From NCBI RefSeq assembly GCF_003217475.1, contig NZ_QJSP01000009.1, positions 124,001 through 188,000 on the forward strand: 64,000 bases of DNA, written 5' to 3'. The stretch is from Williamsia limnetica (GTDB lineage Bacteria > Actinomycetota > Actinomycetes > Mycobacteriales > Mycobacteriaceae). The notes below the pieces were generated by a model. That model did no database searches. It had not been told where the DNA came from and saw only the letters and a list, made by a program, of their open reading frames with translations. Of this stretch, positions 8,623-18,026 are shown piece after piece. A program made the translations under genes and the position numbers. The stretch's first letter is position 1, and the number at the start of each line of letters is the position of its first letter.

Positions 8623-9408
8623 TCACTCGGCAGTGAACATCGGTCGTCCGGCCACGGGGTCAGCGGTGATGCGGGCGCGGACGTCGAAGACCGATCGCAA
8701 CAGATCCGCGGTCACCACCGTGGCGGGTCGTCCGTCGGCGATGATCTCGCCACCACGGAGCGCCACGATGCGGTCGCAGTAGCGCGCGGCCTGATTGAGA
8801 TCGTGCAGAACCACCACGACGGTCTTGCCATGCACGCGGACCAGGTCGACCAGCAATTCCATGAGATCGATCTGGTGACGGATATCGAGGTACGTGGTCG
8901 GTTCGTCGAGCAGAAGGATGTCCGTGTCTTGAGCAAGCACCATTGCTATCCAGGCACGCTGTCGTTCGCCACCCGACAGAGAGTCCAGTCGGCGGTCGGC
9001 CAATGACTCGACACCCGCAAGGGCCATGGCATGGTGCATCGCCTCGTCATCGGTTCGGCTCAACCGCGCAAAGGTACCCAGCCGGGGAAATCGGCCCTGC
9101 TCTACCAGTTCGCGCACCCGCAGACCAGTCGGTGCGATGGCGGTCTGAGGTAGTACGGCCAACGCACGAGCCACAGCGGTCGATCGCTGTGCCGAGATGG
9201 GTGTCCCGTGTAAGCGGACCTCGCCGCGCCGGGGGAGAAGCACTCGTGCCAGGGTCATCAGGAGGGTGGACTTTCCAGACCCGTTGGGGCCGACGAGGGC
9301 AGTCAGTGTGCCCTTGGTGATCTGCACGTTCAGATCGTTGATCACAGACCCGCCGCGGTATCCCACCTGTAGGTCGCAACCCTGCAGTTCAGTGTTGTCG
9401 TCGCACAT
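8623..9408 (-). CDS. ABC transporter ATPase, siderophore/metal-chelate (FecE/FepC) type
   Basis: 261 residues. Walker A is GPNGSGKS (40-47), the signature is LSGGERQR (144-151) and Walker B is ILLLDEP (164-170), followed by the H-loop VVLHDLNQAARYCD. These features are standard for ATPases that energise uptake of ferric siderophores, heme or B12. It overlaps the upstream permease gene by 20 bases, so the two are translationally coupled. In this cluster it probably powers import of the metal complex bound by the lipoprotein at 11436, likely the cluster's own peptide product. Confidence 0.95.
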   Translation of the reverse strand: MCDDNTELQGCDLQVGYRGGSVINDLNVQITKGTLTALVGPNGSGKSTLLMTLARVLLPRRGEVRLHGTPISAQRSTAVARALAVLPQTAIAPTGLRVRELVEQGRFPRLGTFARLSRTDDEAMHHAMALAGVESLADRRLDSLSGGERQRAWIAMVLAQDTDILLLDEPTTYLDIRHQIDLMELLVDLVRVHGKTVVVVLHDLNQAARYCDRIVALRGGEIIADGRPATVVTADLLRSVFDVRARITADPVAGRPMFTAE

Positions 9409-10384
9409 GATGCTCCCTTCGGACCAGCCAGATGAGGTACGGCGCGCCGAGTAACGCCGTGAGCGCGCCGACCGGGAGGCCGCTCACTGCGGGGCCGGCA
9501 CCGGGTAGATCGAGGGTGATACTGAAAGCCACCAGATCGGCGCCCGAGAGACAGATCGCGCCGAACACGACGCTGACCGGGATCAGGTCGCGGTGATCCG
9601 CGCCCACCAGTGCGCGCGCTGCGTGTGGAGCCATCAGCCCGACGAAGGCGACCGCACCAGCTGCTGCAATGGCCGTCGCGGCGGCGATCACGGCAATCGC
9701 CAAGAGTGCGAACCTCGTATGGCTGGGCCGCGCCCCCAGACCTGTGGCCGCGATGTCACCGAGGCTCAGGACATTTGCTGCGGGCGCCAAGAACAACCCT
9801 GCCGCAGTGAGGGCAAGTACCCAAGGCCACAGAGAATCCCAGTCTGCTTGGGTACGGGCGTTCAGGGAACCGATCAGCCAACGCAGCACCACGCCCATCG
9901 GCTTCCCGTCGACAACCAGGAGTAGTGAGGTCACCGCACCGAGTACGGCGCCGATCAGAATCCCGGCGACGGCGAGGGACCGTCGGCCGACCAGGAACAG
10001 CATCGCGCCGCAGGCGACTGCGCCGATCAGGGCAGCAGCGGTTGCGAAATCGTTGCCCGGAAACAGGATGAGCGACACCACCACCCCGAGGGCGGCCCCG
10101 GAACCGACCCCCGCCGTCCCTGGTTCTGCCAGTGGGTTGCGCATCACCGCCTGTAGCAGCGCACCCGACAGTGCCAGGAGTGCCCCCGCCCCGATTCCCA
10201 CCAGCACTCGCGGCAGTCGGTACCTGAACACGATCGTCTCGTGCGAGCGGACTGCGGAGGAACCGGACAGTGCTCGGAGGGTGTCGCCCATGCCGAGTTC
10301 GGAACGGCCCACGAGGAGATGCGCGACGATGAGTCCACACAAAATCGTGGCGCCGCCGATGAGGAGAACCACCGACCGTCTCAC
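9389..10384 (-). CDS. ABC transporter permease, FecCD family (second permease)
   Basis: 331 residues with about nine to ten hydrophobic segments. The family sequence RYRLPRVLVGIGAGALLALSG is at about residues 54-74, LAEPGTAGVGSGAALG follows, and GLMAPHAARALVGADHR is the conserved cytoplasmic loop that contacts the ATPase. FecCD permeases form the channel for siderophore-type substrates. It overlaps the upstream permease by 4 bases and the downstream ATPase by 20, so the three form one operon. Confidence 0.93.
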   Translation of the reverse strand: MRRSVVLLIGGATILCGLIVAHLLVGRSELGMGDTLRALSGSSAVRSHETIVFRYRLPRVLVGIGAGALLALSGALLQAVMRNPLAEPGTAGVGSGAALGVVVSLILFPGNDFATAAALIGAVACGAMLFLVGRRSLAVAGILIGAVLGAVTSLLLVVDGKPMGVVLRWLIGSLNARTQADWDSLWPWVLALTAAGLFLAPAANVLSLGDIAATGLGARPSHTRFALLAIAVIAAATAIAAAGAVAFVGLMAPHAARALVGADHRDLIPVSVVFGAICLSGADLVAFSITLDLPGAGPAVSGLPVGALTALLGAPYLIWLVRREHHVRRQH

Positions 10385-11403
10385 CGGGAAGACTCTTGGC
10401 GGTGCAGGGAATACAACAGCGCCGGTACCCCGATCAAGGTGGTGGTGATGCCGACGGGAATTTCAATGGGGTACAGCACTGTTCGTGAGACGAGGTCGGC
10501 GGCTGCAAGAAGTGTCGCGCCGACGATCGGGGTCAGCCAGAAGACACGGCGAGAGCTCGTGGTCTGTAGCGCCCACCGGCTCAGGTGTGGGGCGAGCAGC
10601 GCCACGTAGGCGACGGGGCCGCAGACCGACGCCACGACAGCCGCCAGCACCGCTGCGCACACCAGAGCCAGGACCCGCGATCGGACGACATTGATCCCCA
10701 GGCCGGCGGCGACGTCGTCGCCGAGGGCCAGCGCCGCCACCCGATGTCTCAGGAGATAGGCCACGGGGATGGCAACCATCAACCAGGGCATCACAACTGA
10801 GAGATGAGGCCATCCACGGTCGCTGAGGCTGCCGAGCAGATACCGGAACAAGAGCGGGATGTTGCCTTCGGTACCGAGGCTGACGAGGGCGATGACGAGG
10901 CCGGACGCCATGGCGCTCGCGGCGGACCCGATCAGCAACACCTGCGTGCTGTCCCGGGTACGCCCGACGGCCGCGATGACCACTGTTCCCGTGGCAAGAG
11001 CGCCGCCGAGCGCCACATATGGTAGTCCCGCGAGGGGCACAGGCAACGCGCACACCGTCACTGCGGTGAGAACCACCGCGGCACCCGACGACACACCCAG
11101 GATCTCCGGACCAGCGATCCGGTTCTGCATTGCGTCCTGCATCAAGATCCCGGCGAGGGCGAGTGCGGCACCTCCGAGCAGCCCCAGAAGTGTTCGTGGG
11201 AGTCGCGCGTCGAAGACGTTCGGGTGTAGTGGCGCTGAGGGGTCCAGCAACGCCGAAAGCGCCTGCGCGGGAGTCAAAGTCGGATCTCCGAGACACAGCG
11301 ACGCCGCGAGCACGGCGCCGGCCGCGAGGAGCCCGGCGACCACGAGCGTCGGTGTGCGCGAACCGTACCGCGTTCGCTCCCGGCTGTTGATAATGGTTAT
11401 CAT
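10381..11403 (-). CDS. ABC transporter permease, FecCD family (first permease)
   Basis: 340 residues. It shows the FecCD pattern: DARLPRTLLGLLGGAALALAGILMQD, then GPEILGVSSGAAVVLT, and ALLAPHLSRWALQTTSSR as the ATPase-contact loop. It is the first gene of the importer operon. The ATG at 11401-11403 lies inside a Fur-family box (11388-11402) and has no clear ribosome site, so a start further downstream is possible. A metal-responsive repressor bound there would block the operon. Substrate class is known of the family; the specific metal complex is inferred. Confidence 0.92.
   Translation of the reverse strand: MITIINSRERTRYGSRTPTLVVAGLLAAGAVLAASLCLGDPTLTPAQALSALLDPSAPLHPNVFDARLPRTLLGLLGGAALALAGILMQDAMQNRIAGPEILGVSSGAAVVLTAVTVCALPVPLAGLPYVALGGALATGTVVIAAVGRTRDSTQVLLIGSAASAMASGLVIALVSLGTEGNIPLLFRYLLGSLSDRGWPHLSVVMPWLMVAIPVAYLLRHRVAALALGDDVAAGLGINVVRSRVLALVCAAVLAAVVASVCGPVAYVALLAPHLSRWALQTTSSRRVFWLTPIVGATLLAAADLVSRTVLYPIEIPVGITTTLIGVPALLYSLHRQESSR
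11388..11402. promoter_or_regulatory. Fur-family (Zur-like) 7-1-7 box at the importer promoter
   Basis: TGATAAT-G-GTTATCA is an inverted repeat with one mismatch. It matches the classic 7-1-7 Fur/Zur pattern and not the actinobacterial DtxR/IdeR iron box. It overlaps the permease start codon and lies 34 bases before the divergent lipoprotein gene, so one repressor could control both directions. Confidence 0.7.
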
Positions 11404-11435
11404 TTCGCATTACATCATTCTGCAAGGGAGATCGA

Positions 11436-12371
11436 ATGCGCAAGTTCACGACTTCATCCAGGTTTCAGCGGACGGCGGTGGCCGTCTCGACGTTGGCGGT
11501 TCTCACGACAACGGCGTGCGCAGGAGGCGACTCCGACTCGGGTACCGGCGCCATCTCGGTGACCGATGCAACGGGCGCGACTGTGTCGTTGGACGGACCT
11601 GTCGATCGGATCGCCTGCCTGACGATGATTTGTGTCGACGCCCTCAAGGAGGTCGGGATAACGCCGGTCGCGTATCGCGAGGATCTGGCGACCGACGACC
11701 GATTCTTCGGACCAGATGCCGGGATGCGGAAGATCACCGGTGGTTTCGGTGAAGAGAACGTCGAAGACATTGCGCTGTCCGAGCCCGATCTCGTGATCGG
11801 CTTGGCGGGCGTTCAGGACGGCCTACGGGTGGCAGTGGAAGAATCTGCGCCGCTCTACCTGGTCGATCCGGCCTCGTGGCAGCAGTCCGTCGACTTCCTG
11901 CGCACGGTCGGTCAGGTCACCGGTAAGGAGTCCGAGGCCACAGCGGCGGCGGACGCGTTCACGGAGAAGGTAGACGCCGCGAAGCAGAGCAGATCTGACC
12001 TCACGACGTTGTCGATGTACGGCGAGCCGGGGAGCCTGGGCGTCGACTCTGTCGGCACGCCGGTGGGGTCACTGCTCGCCGAGGTCAGCAGGTACCCCTG
12101 GGCTTCCGGAACGGACGCTTTTGCAACGGTGTCCGTCGAGCAGATCGCGTCTGTGAATCCCGACGTGATCTTCGCGCAGGCCTTTTCCGCGGGCTCTGAT
12201 TCAGAGCCGCTCTCGGTGCGGCTCGCGGCCAACCCTGTGTGGCCGACCATCTCGGCGGCTGAGAACGATCGGGTGGTCGAGGTGGAGGCGGACGTGTGGG
12301 CCACCGGGCGCGGCACCGTGTCCTTGGGCATCGTGCTCGATGTGGTGATGGCAGAACTCGGACCCGCCTGA
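11436..12371 (+). CDS. Metal-chelate ABC substrate-binding lipoprotein (FecB/BtuF-like)
   Basis: 311 residues, ribosome site AAGGGAGA before the ATG. A signal peptide ends in the lipobox TTAC, so C28 should be lipid-anchored. The mature part follows the type III binding-protein pattern: VDRIACLTMICVDALKEVGITPVAY near the start, DIALSEPDLVIGLAG, and VEQIASVNPDVIFAQAF in the second lobe. Such proteins bind siderophores, heme or cobalamin on the membrane's outer face. It diverges from its permease operon and shares a control region with it. Its 3' end is 6 bases before the next Fur-family box and the precursor gene. Confidence 0.92.
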   Translation: MRKFTTSSRFQRTAVAVSTLAVLTTTACAGGDSDSGTGAISVTDATGATVSLDGPVDRIACLTMICVDALKEVGITPVAYREDLATDDRFFGPDAGMRKITGGFGEENVEDIALSEPDLVIGLAGVQDGLRVAVEESAPLYLVDPASWQQSVDFLRTVGQVTGKESEATAAADAFTEKVDAAKQSRSDLTTLSMYGEPGSLGVDSVGTPVGSLLAEVSRYPWASGTDAFATVSVEQIASVNPDVIFAQAFSAGSDSEPLSVRLAANPVWPTISAAENDRVVEVEADVWATGRGTVSLGIVLDVVMAELGPA

Positions 12372-12377
12372 CACTAT

Positions 12378-12392
12378 TGAAAATGATTGTCA
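12378..12392. promoter_or_regulatory. Fur-family (Zur-like) 7-1-7 box before the precursor gene
   Basis: TGAAAAT-G-ATTGTCA has one mismatch between arms and differs by one base from TGAAAATGATTTTCA, the form I recall for actinobacterial Zur boxes. It is 84 bases upstream of the precursor start. Zinc control is the best guess; another Fur-family metal sensor is possible. Confidence 0.72.
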
Positions 12393-12476
12393 TTTGGTTT
12401 ACCGTGGGAACCGCTTGGTACCAAGAGTCCGATTCGGCTGTCTGCAGCTGAATTCAACTGCAATAAAAGGAGATTC

Positions 12477-12602
12477 ATGATCGACAATGAGTTCTTCCGT
12501 CCCATCCAGGCGCCTGTCACGCTGGCGACCCACTCGGCCGGACACAGCAACGCCCTCGTGGAAAACCCGTTCGACGATGTCCAGGACACCGACGCCGAGT
12601 AG
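12477..12602 (+). CDS. Candidate RiPP precursor peptide (41 aa)
   Basis: A 41-codon frame with an excellent ribosome site (AAAAGGAGA, 5 bases before the ATG). It has its own box-bearing promoter and a hairpin after it, followed by an RRE protein and a YcaO: the classic position of a RiPP precursor. The N-terminus (MIDNEFFRPIQAPV) could be a leader recognised by the RRE protein. The middle, TLATHSAGHSNAL, holds the cyclisable T15, T18, S20 and S24 next to H19 and H23, possible metal ligands. The tail NPFDDVQDTDAE is acidic. There is no Cys, unusual for azole RiPPs. An N-terminal core with a C-terminal follower is the alternative. Confidence 0.75.
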   Translation: MIDNEFFRPIQAPVTLATHSAGHSNALVENPFDDVQDTDAE

Positions 12603-12628
12603 TTCTCGGGTCTTCTGACCCGTCAATG

Positions 12629-12670
12629 CCCGCATGCCACGCAAGCCGCACAGCTTGCGTGGCATGCGGG
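12629..12670. terminator. Strong hairpin between precursor and biosynthesis genes
   Basis: A perfect 18-base stem (arms 12629-12646 and 12653-12670) with a 6-base loop. No T-run follows. Its position, 27 bases after the precursor stop and before the maturation genes, suggests partial termination or an mRNA-stabilising end that raises precursor over enzyme levels. Confidence 0.7.
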
Positions 12671-12691
12671 GCCGCAACGAGAAGCGAGACC

Positions 12692-13387
12692 GTGCACTTA
12701 TCACCGAACACCTCGATCTATCGAGCCCGCAATGGCTATGTACTGCGCACTGCCGACGACCGACATTACGAACTGACCCTGCCCGACCGTGAGGTCGACG
12801 AGCTGCTCGACGTGCTCGGCGGGAATGGGGTACCAGAATCGACTGATGTGTCCGCGGTGGTGGCCGCGTTGGTCGACTCCGGGGACGTCGTGGTGCGCGC
12901 GACTCTGCCGACCGTGGCGGTGCACGGATCTGGTCGCATCGCGGAGAAGGTCGTAAATATGTTGAGTAGCAGCATAATACGCAGTACCGACCAGGCGGAC
13001 GTCGTTTGTCACCTCAGTGACGACGAGGTCGACCCCGAGGCGATCGGGCAGGTGGATCTGGCGTGTTACCGGGATGGGATCAGTCAGGTGATCACGCCGC
13101 GGGCCGTCGCTCCCGGCGACGTCATCGGTCGCCGCCGCGCGTGCAACCTCCACCGCGACCGGATTCCGTCGCAGTATCGTCCCGTCGGCGGCCGACGACT
13201 CGATTCGCCGGAGCACCCGGTGTCCGATCGCGCGGCCGAGCTGATCGCACACCTGATAGTCGACGAGATCGGTCGCCGCGGCGTCGCGGCGGACGAGCGG
13301 TCGCACTACCTGCTGACCGTTGTGGACCTGCGAACGCTGACGTCGGTCCGGCGGCCGGTGTTGCCGATTCCTTCTGCGCCACAGTGA
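12692..13387 (+). CDS. RRE / ocin-ThiF-like leader-binding protein of a TOMM cluster
   Basis: 231 residues from a GTG at 12692; the frame is open further upstream but would run through the hairpin. Residues 5-45 (SIYRARNGYVLRTADDRHYEL, then a helix REVDELLDVLGG) look like the winged-helix RRE that grips RiPP leaders. VAVHGSGRIAEKVVNML (76-91) and VDLACYRDGISQVITPRAVAPGDVIGRRRACNLH resemble the degenerate ThiF/E1 fold of ocin-ThiF cyclodehydratase partners. It likely presents the precursor to YcaO. Assignment is by motif pattern, not search. Its TGA overlaps the next GTG. Confidence 0.7.
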   Translation: MHLSPNTSIYRARNGYVLRTADDRHYELTLPDREVDELLDVLGGNGVPESTDVSAVVAALVDSGDVVVRATLPTVAVHGSGRIAEKVVNMLSSSIIRSTDQADVVCHLSDDEVDPEAIGQVDLACYRDGISQVITPRAVAPGDVIGRRRACNLHRDRIPSQYRPVGGRRLDSPEHPVSDRAAELIAHLIVDEIGRRGVAADERSHYLLTVVDLRTLTSVRRPVLPIPSAPQ

Positions 13388-14724
13388 TATCAGAGCTCGT
13401 TCGGGTCGGCGACACCGCGCTACGAACACTCGTCGCGCTGCCGGCTACCCGCCCGCACGCCGTCCTGGTGCTTCGTACGCCCTACGATGCAGACCAGCAC
13501 GTGGACGAAGCGCGTCAGTGGACGCTGCGAGGTGTGGCGATGGTCGTGCAAGATGTCCGCGGACGATACGGGTCGTCCGGGCGCTTCCGTCCGTATGAGA
13601 ACGAAGGCTCCGACGGGCTGGCGACTGTGGAATGGGTGCGCCGCCAGTGCTGGGGTCGCGCGCCCATCATCCTCTACGGCACATCGTATGCCGCCCACTG
13701 CGCGGTCGAGACCGCCATCGCCGCAGCCAGTTCCGACATGGACGTGGTGGACGGGGTCTCGGTGGCCGTTCCCGCGCTCGGACTCGGCGAGAGCGCACGC
13801 AACGTCGATGGATCCTTCCAGCTCGAATCCCGCGTCGGGTGGTGGCTCGAACACGGCGAGGGACAGCGGTCACCGGGAACAGCGATCCCGGACGGTGCGC
13901 TCTCGACCTTGCCCGTGGTCGACATCGGGGCTCGGGTCAATCCACCGATCGAGGCGTGGCACAGGGTCTTGCGGGCGGCCCGTCGAGACGCCGAACGCGC
14001 CACGAGCACTGCACTACTGCGGTGTCCGCTGCTCGCGATCGGCGGTACCGCCGACTGGTTCGCGCAGGACACCATCGACCTCTGGTCATCGTGGGGTGGG
14101 CCTTCTGCCCTCGTCATCGGCCCCTGGGACCACGGTTTGCGGAACTCGGGCCGCGCTCGACACATGCAGTCGTGGATTGCCGATGTGGTCGCCGGTGAAG
14201 CGCCGAGCGGTGCGCAGGTCCACGGTCTGCCTGCGGGGATTCGACGATATGCGCAGTGGCCGTCGAGCGAGACGCGGATCCACCTGAAGGGCGGTCATTT
14301 CCGTAGCGATCCCTCGACACCCTTTCCCTCTTTGGCATTCGGCGTCGACATCGGGCGTCCGGCCCGCAGGCCCGACTGCCTGCTGGTGGACTTCGAACAC
14401 CGCGCATCGGTCGTAGTCGGGAGCCCGACCGTCCGAATAGTGAGCTCGCACGGCCACCATCAATGGTCGGCAGTGCTCGCGGTCCGCCGCCGCGACGGAC
14501 GGCTCGAACAGCTCGCCCACGGGACATCGCCGCGGCCGGACATTCGTCTGACCCCGGTATCCACCCATCTCGAACCAGGAGAGACCATGGCCGTGATCAT
14601 CTCGGCGCACTCGTTCCCGCGGCATCCGCGCGATCTGCAGGTGGGCGATGACCCTCTCACCGGAACCACCATGCGGACGACCGACCGCGAGGTCCACGGC
14701 GTGTTCGTGGAGCTCCCGGCGTGA
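13384..14724 (+). CDS. CocE/NonD (S15) family serine hydrolase, putative RiPP protease
   Basis: 446 residues from the GTG at 13384, which overlaps the previous TGA. The frame shows VLRTPYDADQHVDEARQW, VVQDVRGRYGSSGRFRPYENEGSDG and YGTSYAA with the nucleophile S101. D224 (GGTADWF) and H250 (GPWDHG) complete the triad. A C-terminal jelly-roll-like region follows, as in cocaine esterase and X-Pro dipeptidyl peptidases. Known members hydrolyse esters or release Xaa-Pro dipeptides. Embedded between the leader-binding protein and YcaO, it may trim the leader or cut the modified peptide. That role is inferred. No signal peptide is seen. Confidence 0.85.
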   Translation: MISELVRVGDTALRTLVALPATRPHAVLVLRTPYDADQHVDEARQWTLRGVAMVVQDVRGRYGSSGRFRPYENEGSDGLATVEWVRRQCWGRAPIILYGTSYAAHCAVETAIAAASSDMDVVDGVSVAVPALGLGESARNVDGSFQLESRVGWWLEHGEGQRSPGTAIPDGALSTLPVVDIGARVNPPIEAWHRVLRAARRDAERATSTALLRCPLLAIGGTADWFAQDTIDLWSSWGGPSALVIGPWDHGLRNSGRARHMQSWIADVVAGEAPSGAQVHGLPAGIRRYAQWPSSETRIHLKGGHFRSDPSTPFPSLAFGVDIGRPARRPDCLLVDFEHRASVVVGSPTVRIVSSHGHHQWSAVLAVRRRDGRLEQLAHGTSPRPDIRLTPVSTHLEPGETMAVIISAHSFPRHPRDLQVGDDPLTGTTMRTTDREVHGVFVELPA

Positions 14725-16082
14725 GCGGCCCGGCGATCCTGACGGCCGAAGACCTCGTCGATCCGTATGCCGGCATCATCCGAGCGCTGCACCCCGTCGA
14801 GCGTCTGGACGGTATGCCCGATCGTTACGTCGGCCTGACCGCCGAGATCGCAGACACCAGGGCACATGGCAATTGGCCCAGTGACCTGGTGTCGCTCGGC
14901 ACCACATTCGCCGACGACGCGGGTGCTCGCATCGCTGCCATCGGAGAGGCCGTGGAGCGCTACTGCGGAAACCATGTGCCTGTGGGCCTTGTGCGCGCCA
15001 GCGCCCGCGAACTGCAGGCTTCCGGGGTCCGCCATCTCGGGCCCGCGCAGCTGAACTTCTTCGCACCCTGGCAGCTACAGACGCCGGGGTTCCCCTTCTC
15101 GCAGTTCACCGACGACACGTCGGTGGTGTGGGCGAAGGGATCCGGTGACGATGGGCTACCGACGCTGGTGCCGGCGTCGTTCGTGTACCTCAACTGGAGG
15201 ACCGGTGGGCGACAACGCGAACCGTGGCTGCACCATCTCAACTATGCGGGGATCGCCACCGGAGCGGGTCTCGAGGACGCGGCGACCCGTGGCCTGCTCG
15301 AACTGGTCGAACGGGATTCCCTGTCGCTGTGGTGGCATCTGAACCTGCCTGCCCGTGGGATCGCCCTCGAGAGTGTTCCGGGCTTGATCGATGACCTCGG
15401 CGACACCCGACTGCGTTGCCACCTACTCGAACTGCCCGCCTTCTTCGGGGTGCCGGTAGTCGCCGCGGTGATCCACGACCCCGAACTGGGAATCGTGGCC
15501 GGCGGCTTCTCCGCGAAACTCGACCCGGCGGCGACAGCCCGAAAGGCGGTCTTGGAGGCACTGCACAGCTGGGTCTTCACCCGGGGGCTGACGGACGCCG
15601 ACGGCTGGGTGTTCGCCTCCATGGAAGCCGGCGTCCTCTCGAGAGGCCTGTATCTCGATCATCGAGCGGATCGGAGCTACCTCACGGGCGCCGGTGCGCG
15701 CAGCGAACACATTCGCGACCTGGGCGCTCAGGCCCAGGTGTGGCTCGACCCGCGAACCCAGCAGGCCCTGCTGTCGCGTTTCACCGAGCCGGCCTCCACC
15801 ATCGGCGTCGGGGAGATGCCGACCGGGGACATCGGGACCTTGCATGCCCGATTGCGCGAGGCCGGGCATCACGTCGTCGTTTGCGACATCACCACGCCGG
15901 ACGTCGCATTGACCCCGTTGCGGGTCGCCCGCGTGTGCGCCGGTGGACTCATCCCGAATGCGCCTGCCGCATTTCCGTATTTCGGACTCGCGCGGTGGCG
16001 AGAGGTCGCACAGGCGGCGGCGGTGGCCGGTGATCCCGACGATCCCGAGTCTCTACTCCTGATACCCCCACCGAGCCTGTGA
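14721..16082 (+). CDS. YcaO cyclodehydratase
   Basis: 453 residues, GTG start overlapping the previous TGA. The three ATP/Mg-binding stretches of YcaO are present: ARIAAIGEAVERY (69-81), ATRGLLELVERDSL (188-201) and ARKAVLEALHS (273-283). The C-terminus ends IPPPSL, a proline-rich end as in azoline-forming YcaOs. The enzyme uses ATP to activate peptide amides and make azoline rings from Ser, Thr or Cys; thioamide or amidine chemistry is an alternative. With an ocin-ThiF-like partner and a SagB-type oxidase nearby, oxazoline/oxazole formation is the likeliest reaction. Confidence 0.93.
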   Translation: MSGPAILTAEDLVDPYAGIIRALHPVERLDGMPDRYVGLTAEIADTRAHGNWPSDLVSLGTTFADDAGARIAAIGEAVERYCGNHVPVGLVRASARELQASGVRHLGPAQLNFFAPWQLQTPGFPFSQFTDDTSVVWAKGSGDDGLPTLVPASFVYLNWRTGGRQREPWLHHLNYAGIATGAGLEDAATRGLLELVERDSLSLWWHLNLPARGIALESVPGLIDDLGDTRLRCHLLELPAFFGVPVVAAVIHDPELGIVAGGFSAKLDPAATARKAVLEALHSWVFTRGLTDADGWVFASMEAGVLSRGLYLDHRADRSYLTGAGARSEHIRDLGAQAQVWLDPRTQQALLSRFTEPASTIGVGEMPTGDIGTLHARLREAGHHVVVCDITTPDVALTPLRVARVCAGGLIPNAPAAFPYFGLARWREVAQAAAVAGDPDDPESLLLIPPPSL

Positions 16083-17305
16083 ATCCTTTCCGCACCTTCG
16101 TACTTGCCCGATCCATCTGCTGGGCAGGGAATGCGGTCACCCTGGTCGCGTTGCCCTTGTTCGTCTACCAGCAGGGTGGGTCAGCGCTCCTGACCGGGGT
16201 GGCGTTCGCGGTCGAGTCGATGCCCTATCTGCTGTTCGGGCTTTTTGCCGGCGCAACGGCCGATCGATTCGATCGCAAGAGAATCCTGGTGGTGTCGCAG
16301 ATTCTCAGCGCGGTCATCCTGTCGACGATCCCGCTCGCAGCTGTCACGGGGATCGCCTCGATTGCCCATGTGCTGGTGGTGGGGTTTGCGGTCTCCACGT
16401 TGTTCGTCTACTACGATGCGGCAACCTTCGGAGTGGTGCCCGCGCTTGTCGGCCGTGACGGCATAGCCGATGCCACAGCCCTTTTGGTCACGACAGGAAC
16501 CGTCATAGGAATCGCGGGACCCTTGCTGGGTGGTATCGCCGCTTCGGCCTTGAGCCCGGCCGGCGCCATCGCGATCGACGCGGGCTGTTACGTCGTCGCG
16601 GCGCTGATCACCGCTACGGTCGCTGTACCTGCGAGTACCGGGGCAGCGGACGCCGACCGGCGAGTGTGGCAACAGATCTCCGAAGGCCTGCAGTACATCT
16701 GGCGCCAGCCGGTGATCAGGATGCTGACTCTGGTCGGAATCGGGGTGAGCATGGCCAATGGGGTCGTGGTCGGGCTGATGGTGGTGGTTGGTGTCCGGCG
16801 GCTCGGACTCGACGACGGTGATGCACGCCTGGGTGCGCTCTACGCGGCGACTGCGCTCGGAGCCTTCCTGATCAGTCTCGTCAGTGCACATATCCAGCGG
16901 CGCATGGGCACCGGGAAGATCACGCTCGTCGGGATAGGAGTGGCTGCGAGTGCGATGCTGGTGTGGGCGCACACCACGTCCTTTGCAGCATCCTTGCTGA
17001 TCCTTGTCGCATACCAGGCCGCCAACACGATGGTCGTGGTCAACGGGATCGTTGTGCGGCAATCGATCACCCCGGATCATCTGCAGTCCCGGGTGAACAC
17101 GACAGCCCGGATGATCGCCATGGGCGGCACCCCGTTCGGTGCCACACTCGGTGGAGCGGTCGCCGAGGTGGCCGGTGCCGGCGTGGCACTGTCGATAGGC
17201 GCAGCGGCACTCGTGCTGGCGGTCGCCGGCGGCCTGCACGCCGGCGTGGGGCGCTTACCGTTGCTCGCCGAGCTCTCGGCGGGCGCCCACGGCAAAGGCG
17301 AGTAA
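16079..17305 (+). CDS. MFS exporter (MFS_3 type)
   Basis: 408 residues, start codon overlapping the YcaO stop. About twelve hydrophobic helices are visible. The loop GATADRFDRKRILVVSQ near residues 58-74 is the MFS signature region. The overall pattern fits the MFS_3/EntS-like group that exports enterobactin and other natural products. As the last gene of the plus-strand RiPP operon it most likely secretes the finished peptide, complementing the importer at 8623-12371. Its last 51 bases overlap the convergent SagB-type gene. Confidence 0.9.
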   Translation: MNPFRTFVLARSICWAGNAVTLVALPLFVYQQGGSALLTGVAFAVESMPYLLFGLFAGATADRFDRKRILVVSQILSAVILSTIPLAAVTGIASIAHVLVVGFAVSTLFVYYDAATFGVVPALVGRDGIADATALLVTTGTVIGIAGPLLGGIAASALSPAGAIAIDAGCYVVAALITATVAVPASTGAADADRRVWQQISEGLQYIWRQPVIRMLTLVGIGVSMANGVVVGLMVVVGVRRLGLDDGDARLGALYAATALGAFLISLVSAHIQRRMGTGKITLVGIGVAASAMLVWAHTTSFAASLLILVAYQAANTMVVVNGIVVRQSITPDHLQSRVNTTARMIAMGGTPFGATLGGAVAEVAGAGVALSIGAAALVLAVAGGLHAGVGRLPLLAELSAGAHGKGE

Positions 17306-17998
17306 GGGAATCTGGGTGTCGTCCAGCGACAGGACGTCGGCGACTCGATCGTCGTAGAAGCCGGAGATCGCGCAGCAGGAGAGTTCGAGGGCCTCACCCA
17401 CCAGATAGAGGTGTGCTGCAGCCACCCCGGCGTCGACATGCACTGTCCGATAGTGTCTCTCGGAGTACTTCACCAGCGTCGCGGTCATTTCTCCGGCGAG
17501 GACGAGGCACACCGAGGCGCGTTGCGCGAACTCGGCTTGCACGAGGCACTCACCGAAAGCGGTGCGGATGTCGCCCGTCCTACGCTGAATGAGCCGGTGC
17601 CGGGCCGGGTCGAACGTGTAGATGGCCGAAGCGATGTCGTCGATGGGTTCCAACGCCACGACGTGGACTGTCATCGAGTTCAGGCCACCCGCGCTCGGAT
17701 GGATATCGAGGGTGTGTGCTGTTCGCTCGCCGGTGGTCACCGTGCGTTGCGGCCCCAGGGCCCATCGCAACAAGGTGGACAACTCGAGATGTCGGAGCGA
17801 GCCGAAGACGTACCGTGAACGACGCTCCAGCAGTGCCCGGCCCAGGGGAAGCGTCGGTTCATCACCGGGCGCCCTGAGAGATACCGATCCGGTGCTGTCG
17901 CTCAGGGCTGTCGACATGCTGGGATCAGGGGCGTTGTCAGAGAGCGCCTGGTGTATCCGCTGTACACGATCGATTCGCGAAGAGAACTGCGTGGTCAT
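17255..17998 (-). CDS. SagB-type nitroreductase-fold dehydrogenase (azoline oxidase)
   Basis: 247 residues. LLERRSRYVFGS (57-67), a helix LSTLLRWALG, and PSAGGLNSMTVHVVAL (101-116), then IYTFDPARHRLI, are the defining run of SagB-type dehydrogenases. These FMN enzymes oxidise azolines to aromatic azoles in thiazole/oxazole-modified peptides. It is convergent with the exporter, overlapping it by 51 bases, and is read from its own promoter, which carries a Fur-family box. So ring oxidation seems to be under the same metal control but on a separate transcript. Confidence 0.85.
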   Translation of the reverse strand: MTTQFSSRIDRVQRIHQALSDNAPDPSMSTALSDSTGSVSLRAPGDEPTLPLGRALLERRSRYVFGSLRHLELSTLLRWALGPQRTVTTGERTAHTLDIHPSAGGLNSMTVHVVALEPIDDIASAIYTFDPARHRLIQRRTGDIRTAFGECLVQAEFAQRASVCLVLAGEMTATLVKYSERHYRTVHVDAGVAAAHLYLVGEALELSCCAISGFYDDRVADVLSLDDTQIPLLAFAVGARRELGEQR

Positions 17999-18011
17999 CT
18001 CGGAAGTATAA

Positions 18012-18026
18012 CGACAATCATTGTCG
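18012..18026. promoter_or_regulatory. Perfect Fur-family (Zur-like) 7-1-7 box before the SagB-type gene
   Basis: CGACAAT-C-ATTGTCG is a perfect inverted repeat 14 bases upstream of the start at 17998. An adjoining GATAATGGTT (from 18026) resembles half of the box at 11388, so two repressor dimers may bind side by side. Confidence 0.72.

Follow-up and report, generated by a model that had tools for sequence, protein, structure and literature searches.

Which function is served by a gene cluster in which an exporter and an importer of the metal-chelate type are encoded alongside the genes for the biosynthesis of a small ribosomal peptide? Such a cluster, comprising ten genes and three Fur-family palindromes, lies at positions 8623-18026 of a 64,000-nucleotide stretch of Williamsia limnetica (contig NZ_QJSP01000009.1, positions 124,001 to 188,000), which is referred to here as the window and is part of a genome of 6.35 Mb in 52 contigs. 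A preliminary description had read the cluster as directing the synthesis of an azol(in)e-type, ribosomally synthesized and post-translationally modified peptide (RiPP) under metal control, and all genes that it had named were present by family matches. From the sequence evidence given below, we conclude that the cluster is probably a zinc-starvation system repressed by Zur. As its product we favour a secreted ribosomal zincophore, with a probability of about 0.6.

The cluster almost certainly belongs to the streptamidine (ami) RiPP family, since its precursor exceeds the cut-off of the corresponding NCBIfam model and its gene set is that of the published ami cluster. The precursor, MIDNEFFRPIQAPVTLATHSAGHSNALVENPFDDVQDTDAE, scored 56.6 bits against the model 'streptamidine family RiPP' (NF040714, cut-off 40). 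The ami gene set, as described in 2021 by Russell and colleagues, consists of the FecBCDE-type importer genes amiF1-F4, amiA, amiB, the hydrolase gene amiC, the YcaO gene amiD, the dehydrogenase gene amiE and an exporter (PMC8442711). The same work gives the cluster of Streptomyces albidoflavus J1074 as MIBiG BGC0002115, reports streptamidine-type clusters in over 230 species and proposes a role of the ami genes in metal import (PMC8442711). The gene set that had seemed to lack an established precedent is thus that of a family published in 2021. Neither does the azol(in)e label suit the sole characterised relative: streptamidine contains a six-membered amidine and no azole, with an oxazoline intermediate proposed from mutants, and its role is stated as unknown (PMC8442711).

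The window and the J1074 cluster share the precursor family, AmiB, AmiC, the YcaO protein AmiD, AmiE and the FecBCDE-type AmiF1-F4, the importer being a feature of a major ami subset. They differ in the core peptide (THSAGH in the window, HLSATH in J1074) and in the arrangement of the importer genes, which in the window are split around a divergent promoter. Moreover, the window has a clear SagB-type dehydrogenase gene with its own boxed promoter, and the ATP-binding cassette (ABC) exporter pair amiT1-T2 was not found in its cluster, where an exporter of the major facilitator superfamily (MFS) occupies its place. Loss of amiT1-T2 merely lowered streptamidine production, and the pair is thus not defining (PMC8442711). 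Streptomyces coeruleorubidus (L084) has the ABC pair, and the SagB-type protein encoded after its amiD is weaker (41.3 bits, below the cut-off) than that of the window.

The conserved gene set and alignable precursors that the preliminary description had proposed to look for in other genomes were found across 88 non-duplicate ami loci (the best 80 of 392 relatives and 8 others, with three duplicates dropped) and in 86 precursors collected by their SNALV signature. Among these loci, which had been found via AmiD or the precursor, 84/88 had a match to the window's AmiA and 87/88 to its AmiC. The exporter and siderophore-type importer, likewise claimed as parts of the cluster, were recovered with homologues in most loci: an AmiF1-type binding protein occurred in 74/88 fetched stretches and a FecCD permease in 79/88. 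Among the named organisms that carry the cluster, strains of Williamsia muralis are some of the closest, with 81% identity in YcaO, and the precursor was present in 6 of the 9 genomes of the window's genus that were examined. AmiB was less uniform, with a direct match to the window protein in just 15/88 loci; the proteins at its position in 24 loci aligned at 19-60% identity. The label RRE/ocin-ThiF-like is weak for the window protein taken alone, which scored 17.8 bits (E 0.003) against TIGR03882, under the cut-off of 36.9, but it holds for the family, in which 20 of the 24 aligned members matched this model (best E 2.7e-6). No AmiD was found in viral contigs; two plasmid records carried one, and one of these is a streptamidine-type locus. 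One genome of 3.5 Mb, from the same class as the window, has three ami copies (L037, L038 and L039), two with a Zur-type box at most 250 bp upstream of amiA and one without.

The control of the cluster was investigated through its promoter palindromes. The box is defined here as the Fur-family 7-1-7 palindrome TGANAATNATTNTCA with up to 2 mismatches unless stated otherwise, and the three promoter boxes previously noted matched it with 1, 0 and 2 mismatches. The window contains 5 matches, two of them outside the cluster, compared to 0.47 expected, and none of 100 shuffles reached 5. At the density of the whole genome (45 places), about 0.003 matches are expected in the three intergenic stretches of the cluster together. 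The conservation in orthologous loci on which the preliminary description had made its reading depend was also observed. Upstream of the amiA match, at a distance of up to 250 bp, 75/84 loci had a box, and 58/73 had one at up to 400 bp upstream of the F1 match, with only 25 boxes elsewhere in the remaining 1.647 Mb. Counted by precursor, 77/86 were boxed, including at least one in each of 20 genus names (taken from record titles; the window, L032 and L034 were assigned to Williamsia on the ground that their genomes are of one genus). A plasmid copy from Rhodococcus rhodochrous, annotated as streptamidine family RiPP, was boxed as well. The third box, upstream of the SagB-type gene, was the least conserved and occurred in 5 of the 13 loci with a strong SagB-type match, all of Williamsia type (L032, L034, L040, L041 and L042). 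The entry that holds L041 bears the title Kitasatospora arboriphila NRRL B-24581, probably in error.

In 60 permuted control palindromes, the mean was 4.5/84 loci at amiA and 2.9/73 at F1. A few controls scored high, up to 66/84 and 55/73, respectively. Chance palindromes as an explanation of the boxes were rejected: the hits of the six top-scoring controls all overlap a Zur-type box of up to 3 mismatches, so these controls detect the same element.

The motif agrees with that obtained for Zur of Streptomyces coelicolor by chromatin immunoprecipitation, tGaNNatSatNNtCa (PMC5472717). To relate the box to a regulator, we considered its occurrences at other genes. Twelve ami genomes held 44 places at up to 1 mismatch, 15 of them in ami loci, and 21 of the other 29 were fetched. 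Nine of these 21 adjoin zinc genes by family match, namely three ZnuA genes, two AztB genes, an ABC-3 metal permease gene (Pfam), an AztD gene, a pair of L33/L28 paralogues (rpmG2/rpmB2) facing an MRF GTPase gene, and a Fur-family gene with an ArsR-type gene. The three ZnuA binding proteins are Pfam matches that stay below the cut-offs of the individual NCBIfam zinc and manganese models. The boxed Fur-family gene behind the ArsR-type gene presumably represents the zur operon. In the window genome, a box precedes a gene for the zinc chaperone AztD, which scored 442.8 bits against a cut-off of 400 and whose family matches solved AztD structures; one of the three Fur-family genes of this genome is similar to that in the boxed operon of W. 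muralis. Family-wide conservation, agreement with the S. coelicolor motif and the same box at zinc genes thus bear out the earlier attribution of the boxes to Zur and zinc. By these comparisons, the ami boxes are very probably of Zur type and the cluster under Zur-type control; Zur itself would then be the repressor.

The neighbourhood of the ami loci provides evidence that is largely independent of the boxes. Ribosomal protein paralogues of the zinc-independent type flank ami in 13/89 loci, and in 12 of the 67 loci longer than 20 kb within the same 21 kb, compared to a rough expectation of 0.36/67, calculated for two such loci in an 8 Mb genome and without correction for relatedness. These paralogues are type B L31 and relatives of L33, L28, S14 or L32. 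NCBIfam models name them in L081 and L082, where cysteine is absent from the L31, L33, S14 and L32 copies and occurs once in the L28 copy. Homologues of CobW/ZigA/MRF-type GTPases occur in 12/89 loci with either query. The zinc-related neighbours stand on either side of ami and were counted as three arrangements. Zinc-independent ribosomal paralogues have been described as targets of Zur in actinobacteria (PMC5472717, PMC6103462).

The core peptide was compared across the family. In the window it would be THSAGH, followed by SNALVENPF; THSAGH less one water would have an [M+H]+ of 591.263. All 86 precursors have Ser3, Ala4, His6 and exactly two histidines in the core, with the sequences HDSASH (29), HNSASH (19), THSAGH (10), HLSATH (10), HASASH (7), HLSASH (5), HASATH (4) and THSATH (2). 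The first histidine is at position 2 instead of 1 in the window and in Williamsia, Rhodococcus KRD197, Nocardioides, Pimelobacter and Modestobacter loci. This conservation is not circular for the 80 named loci, because they were chosen by YcaO and not by precursor. The two retained histidines are compatible with a metal ligand without proving one.

We propose the following sequence of events. With ample zinc, Zur would repress the cluster, and low zinc would release Zur, so that precursor, enzymes, exporter and importer could be made. AmiB would present the precursor to YcaO; this enzyme, the SagB-type dehydrogenase and the hydrolase would together modify and trim the core, probably to THSAGH with an N-terminal amidine. 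After export by the MFS protein, the peptide would bind zinc, or another scarce metal, via its two conserved histidines and the modified backbone, and the binding protein and FecCD permeases of the FecBCDE-type importer would retrieve it with its metal. The sequence evidence bears on the first step only, the release of Zur in low zinc. We infer what the core is and how it is modified, and likewise that the peptide is exported, binds zinc and is taken up again.

Several observations weigh against Zur-type control throughout the family or against a product that carries zinc. The amiA box is missing in 9/84 loci (L029, L039, L078, L095, L097, L101, L102, L106 and L108) and the F1 box in 15/73 (L035, L043, L048-L053, L057, L060, L061, L063, L064, L070 and L101); the latter, several of which have a 3-mismatch site, are mostly Pseudonocardiales. 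Kinship among many Streptomyces loci inflates the box counts. As for boxes outside ami, 21 of the 29 were fetched, and for 12 of these no clear connection to zinc was seen; an L31 gene, a FecCD permease gene and a gene for a family-5 binding protein each adjoin one of the 12. Among the 14 of 42 non-ami places of the window genome that were looked at, a clear zinc link was seen only for AztD and the zur region; these places are mostly 2-mismatch matches, a class that chance alone would supply. The binding protein of the importer is similar in sequence to binders of iron siderophores; a profile of AmiF1 homologues matched siderophore-type binding proteins in PDB (3tny, E 1.1e-23; 5dh0, E 1.5e-23). 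Finally, a test of purified streptamidine with Fe, Co, Cu, Mg, Mn, Ni and Zn showed binding to none of these seven metals, and a YcaO mutant behaved like the wild type under metal starvation (PMC8442711). Redundancy with znu/azt importers may have masked a phenotype in that study.

This published result counts against the known hexapeptide as the ligand. It could be reconciled with a zincophore, as a guess, if the ligand at work were longer or oxidised and the hexapeptide a remnant after use. The dehydrogenase is essential even though streptamidine is not oxidised, and amiF1-F4 are required for its production (PMC8442711). Both requirements would, in our view, accord with a longer, oxidised ligand that is shortened after import. 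Polar effects could account for the importer requirement, but amiA likely has a separate promoter because a separate box lies upstream of it, which counts against such effects. We tentatively suggest, as a possibility that we hold at somewhat less than even odds, that streptamidine represents the first ribosomal zincophore family, derepressed from Zur in many actinobacterial genera, with the hexapeptide as the spent remnant of a longer, oxidised and re-imported zinc ligand.

Three other explanations would account for parts of these data. A peptide made in zinc starvation could act as a signal or inhibitor that does not carry zinc and is sensed or recovered by the importer; Zur-type control with no chelation proven and the failure of streptamidine to bind the metals tested (PMC8442711) would both be expected from it. 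We consider it unlikely, as a carrier better fits the exporter and the widespread homologues of siderophore-type binding protein and FecCD permease, and neither antibacterial nor antifungal activity was found in the 2021 study (PMC8442711).

The Zur-controlled peptide might instead carry cobalt, nickel or iron for use when zinc is short, as the likeness of the FecB-type binding protein to siderophore binders could indicate. Zur can govern genes that spare or replace zinc, and its control would be compatible with such a carrier. This explanation seems to us quite improbable in view of the zinc-sparing ribosomal genes that flank ami in 13/89 loci and of the outcome for iron control. Regulation by IdeR/DtxR was rejected: an IdeR-like box was absent from the window at up to 6/19 mismatches and present at up to 5 mismatches in only 5/80 named loci. 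It could also be argued that the boxes bind another Fur-family regulator, of the FurA/CatR type, and that the cluster answers peroxide or iron, since Fur-family boxes are alike and the window genome has two further Fur-family genes. We give this very little credence: one of the two lies beside a catalase gene and the other beside a peroxidase gene, and the same box precedes zinc genes and the presumed zur operon. A secreted zincophore remains our preferred reading.

Methanobactin is a ribosomal copper metallophore with metal-responsive control and proven metal binding. The window's product would resemble it as a ribosomal peptide proposed to carry metal under metal-responsive control, whereas enzymes and metal differ and binding is only proposed here. 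Coelibactin and [S,S]-EDDS, actinobacterial zincophores under Zur control, are not ribosomal peptides. Their gene clusters likewise contain Zur sites (PMC5472717, PMC12161575), and such sites led earlier to zincophore genes, both for coelibactin and for the [S,S]-EDDS of Amycolatopsis japonicum (PMC12161575). In contrast, the product of the window would be ribosomal, and its metal binding is a proposal. Bottromycin is an antibiotic. It shares with klebsazolicin and, by prediction, with the window's product an amidine made by YcaO (PMC8442711). The window cluster differs from those of these two antibiotics in its importer and Zur-type boxes.

Earlier work has already described the ami family and suggested metal import for it, and the regulation appears to be the new part. 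Zur control of the streptamidine family was not found in the literature searched, which excluded bioRxiv and most subscription journals and is weak evidence of absence. In the accessible text of the 2021 streptamidine paper, Zur is not mentioned (word count of 'zur' zero; PMC8442711), and searches that combined Zur with RiPP, YcaO, metallophore or zincophore, or metallophore with RiPP and YcaO, gave, among the matches listed, no other paper naming streptamidine in title or abstract. Zur-type control and the zinc-sparing neighbourhood give a family of unknown role a directly testable function. If a zinc-binding product is found, a ribosomal zincophore would join the nonribosomal and opine-like ones, and the proposal, if true, might explain why dehydrogenase and importer are needed despite an unoxidised product.

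The features of the cluster are listed in Table 1. The ABC ATPase and two FecCD permease genes are on the minus strand, followed on the plus strand by the genes for lipoprotein, precursor, AmiB-like protein, hydrolase, YcaO and MFS exporter, and by the SagB-type gene on the minus strand. The longest AmiF2 frame begins within the first box; a GTG start at codon 21 is likelier, and the box then sits in the divergent promoter. The AmiF4-like ATPase is 73-75% identical to its ami-locus counterparts in five other genomes of the genus. A profile of AmiD matched the structures of MusD, LynD and TruD, and the window YcaO scored 216.9 against the SagD-type model TIGR03604, narrowly below the cut-off of 219.25. 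AmiB gave no convincing match to PDB sequences. The MFS protein showed a weak likeness to EntS (107 bits, cut-off 324). Cys61, Cys66 and Asp68 of AmiF1 do not vary among 23 aligned sequences and fall close to the beginning of the mature domain.

Table 1. Genes and Zur-type boxes of the ami cluster, in window positions.
Feature	Position	Strand	Evidence
AmiF4-like ABC ATPase of FecBCDE-type importer	8623..9408	-	Pfam ABC_tran 110.3 bits
AmiF3-like FecCD permease	9389..10384	-	Pfam FecCD 238.6 bits
AmiF2-like FecCD permease	10381..11403 (longest frame)	-	Pfam FecCD 240.5 bits
Zur-type box TGATAATGGTTATCA, between divergent importer genes	11388..11402	.	1 mismatch to TGANAATNATTNTCA
AmiF1-like substrate-binding lipoprotein	11436..12371	+	Pfam Peripla_BP_2 73.0 bits
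Zur-type box TGAAAATGATTGTCA, upstream of amiA	12378..12392	.	exact match, 0 mismatches to TGANAATNATTNTCA
AmiA precursor, 41 aa	12477..12602	+	NCBIfam NF040714 56.6 bits, cut-off 40
AmiB-like candidate leader-binding/E1-like partner (start codon inferred)	12692..13387	+	TIGR03882 in family alignment
AmiC-like CocE/S15 serine hydrolase	13384..14724	+	Peptidase_S15 83.4 bits; CocE_NonD 86.3 bits, cut-off 66.3
AmiD-like YcaO	14721..16082	+	Pfam YcaO 161.5 bits
MFS exporter	16079..17305	+	MFS_1 92.7 bits
AmiE-like SagB-type dehydrogenase	17255..17998	-	TIGR03605 111.4 bits, cut-off 78.4; Nitroreductase 61.0
Zur-type box CGACAATCATTGTCG, upstream of SagB-type gene	18012..18026	.	2 mismatches to TGANAATNATTNTCA

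Further observations were made around the ami loci. A beta-propeller-like protein with invariant histidines is encoded at L081:2058-3254, with homologues in 57/89 loci; in Streptomyces its gene is divergent from amiF1 and shares the amiF1 box. It is probably the amiX of the 2021 paper, as its position fits. Profile comparison of AmiX with AztD was weak (probability 16.7%, E 0.0015), and no AmiX relative was found in the window genome in a search run without a positive control. AztD homologues, 47-56% identical to that of the window genome, lie beside ami in L062, L065, L076, L094 and L119, within the first 2 kb.

Boxes were also observed in other settings. In another Williamsia genome, a minus-strand gene for a heavy-metal P-type ATPase (L032:911-2398) has an exact Zur-type box (L032:874-888) directly past its 3' end, about 2.7 kb from the SagB box. 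A Zur-type box is contained in the coding frame of a DEAD-box helicase in two Williamsia genomes (L013:5043 and L142:3042), where it probably reflects conserved coding sequence. In Streptomyces, two SBP_bac_5 proteins are encoded behind Zur-type boxes, at L152:1423-2979 (229 bits) and at L078:17975-19489 (205 bits), the second near ami.

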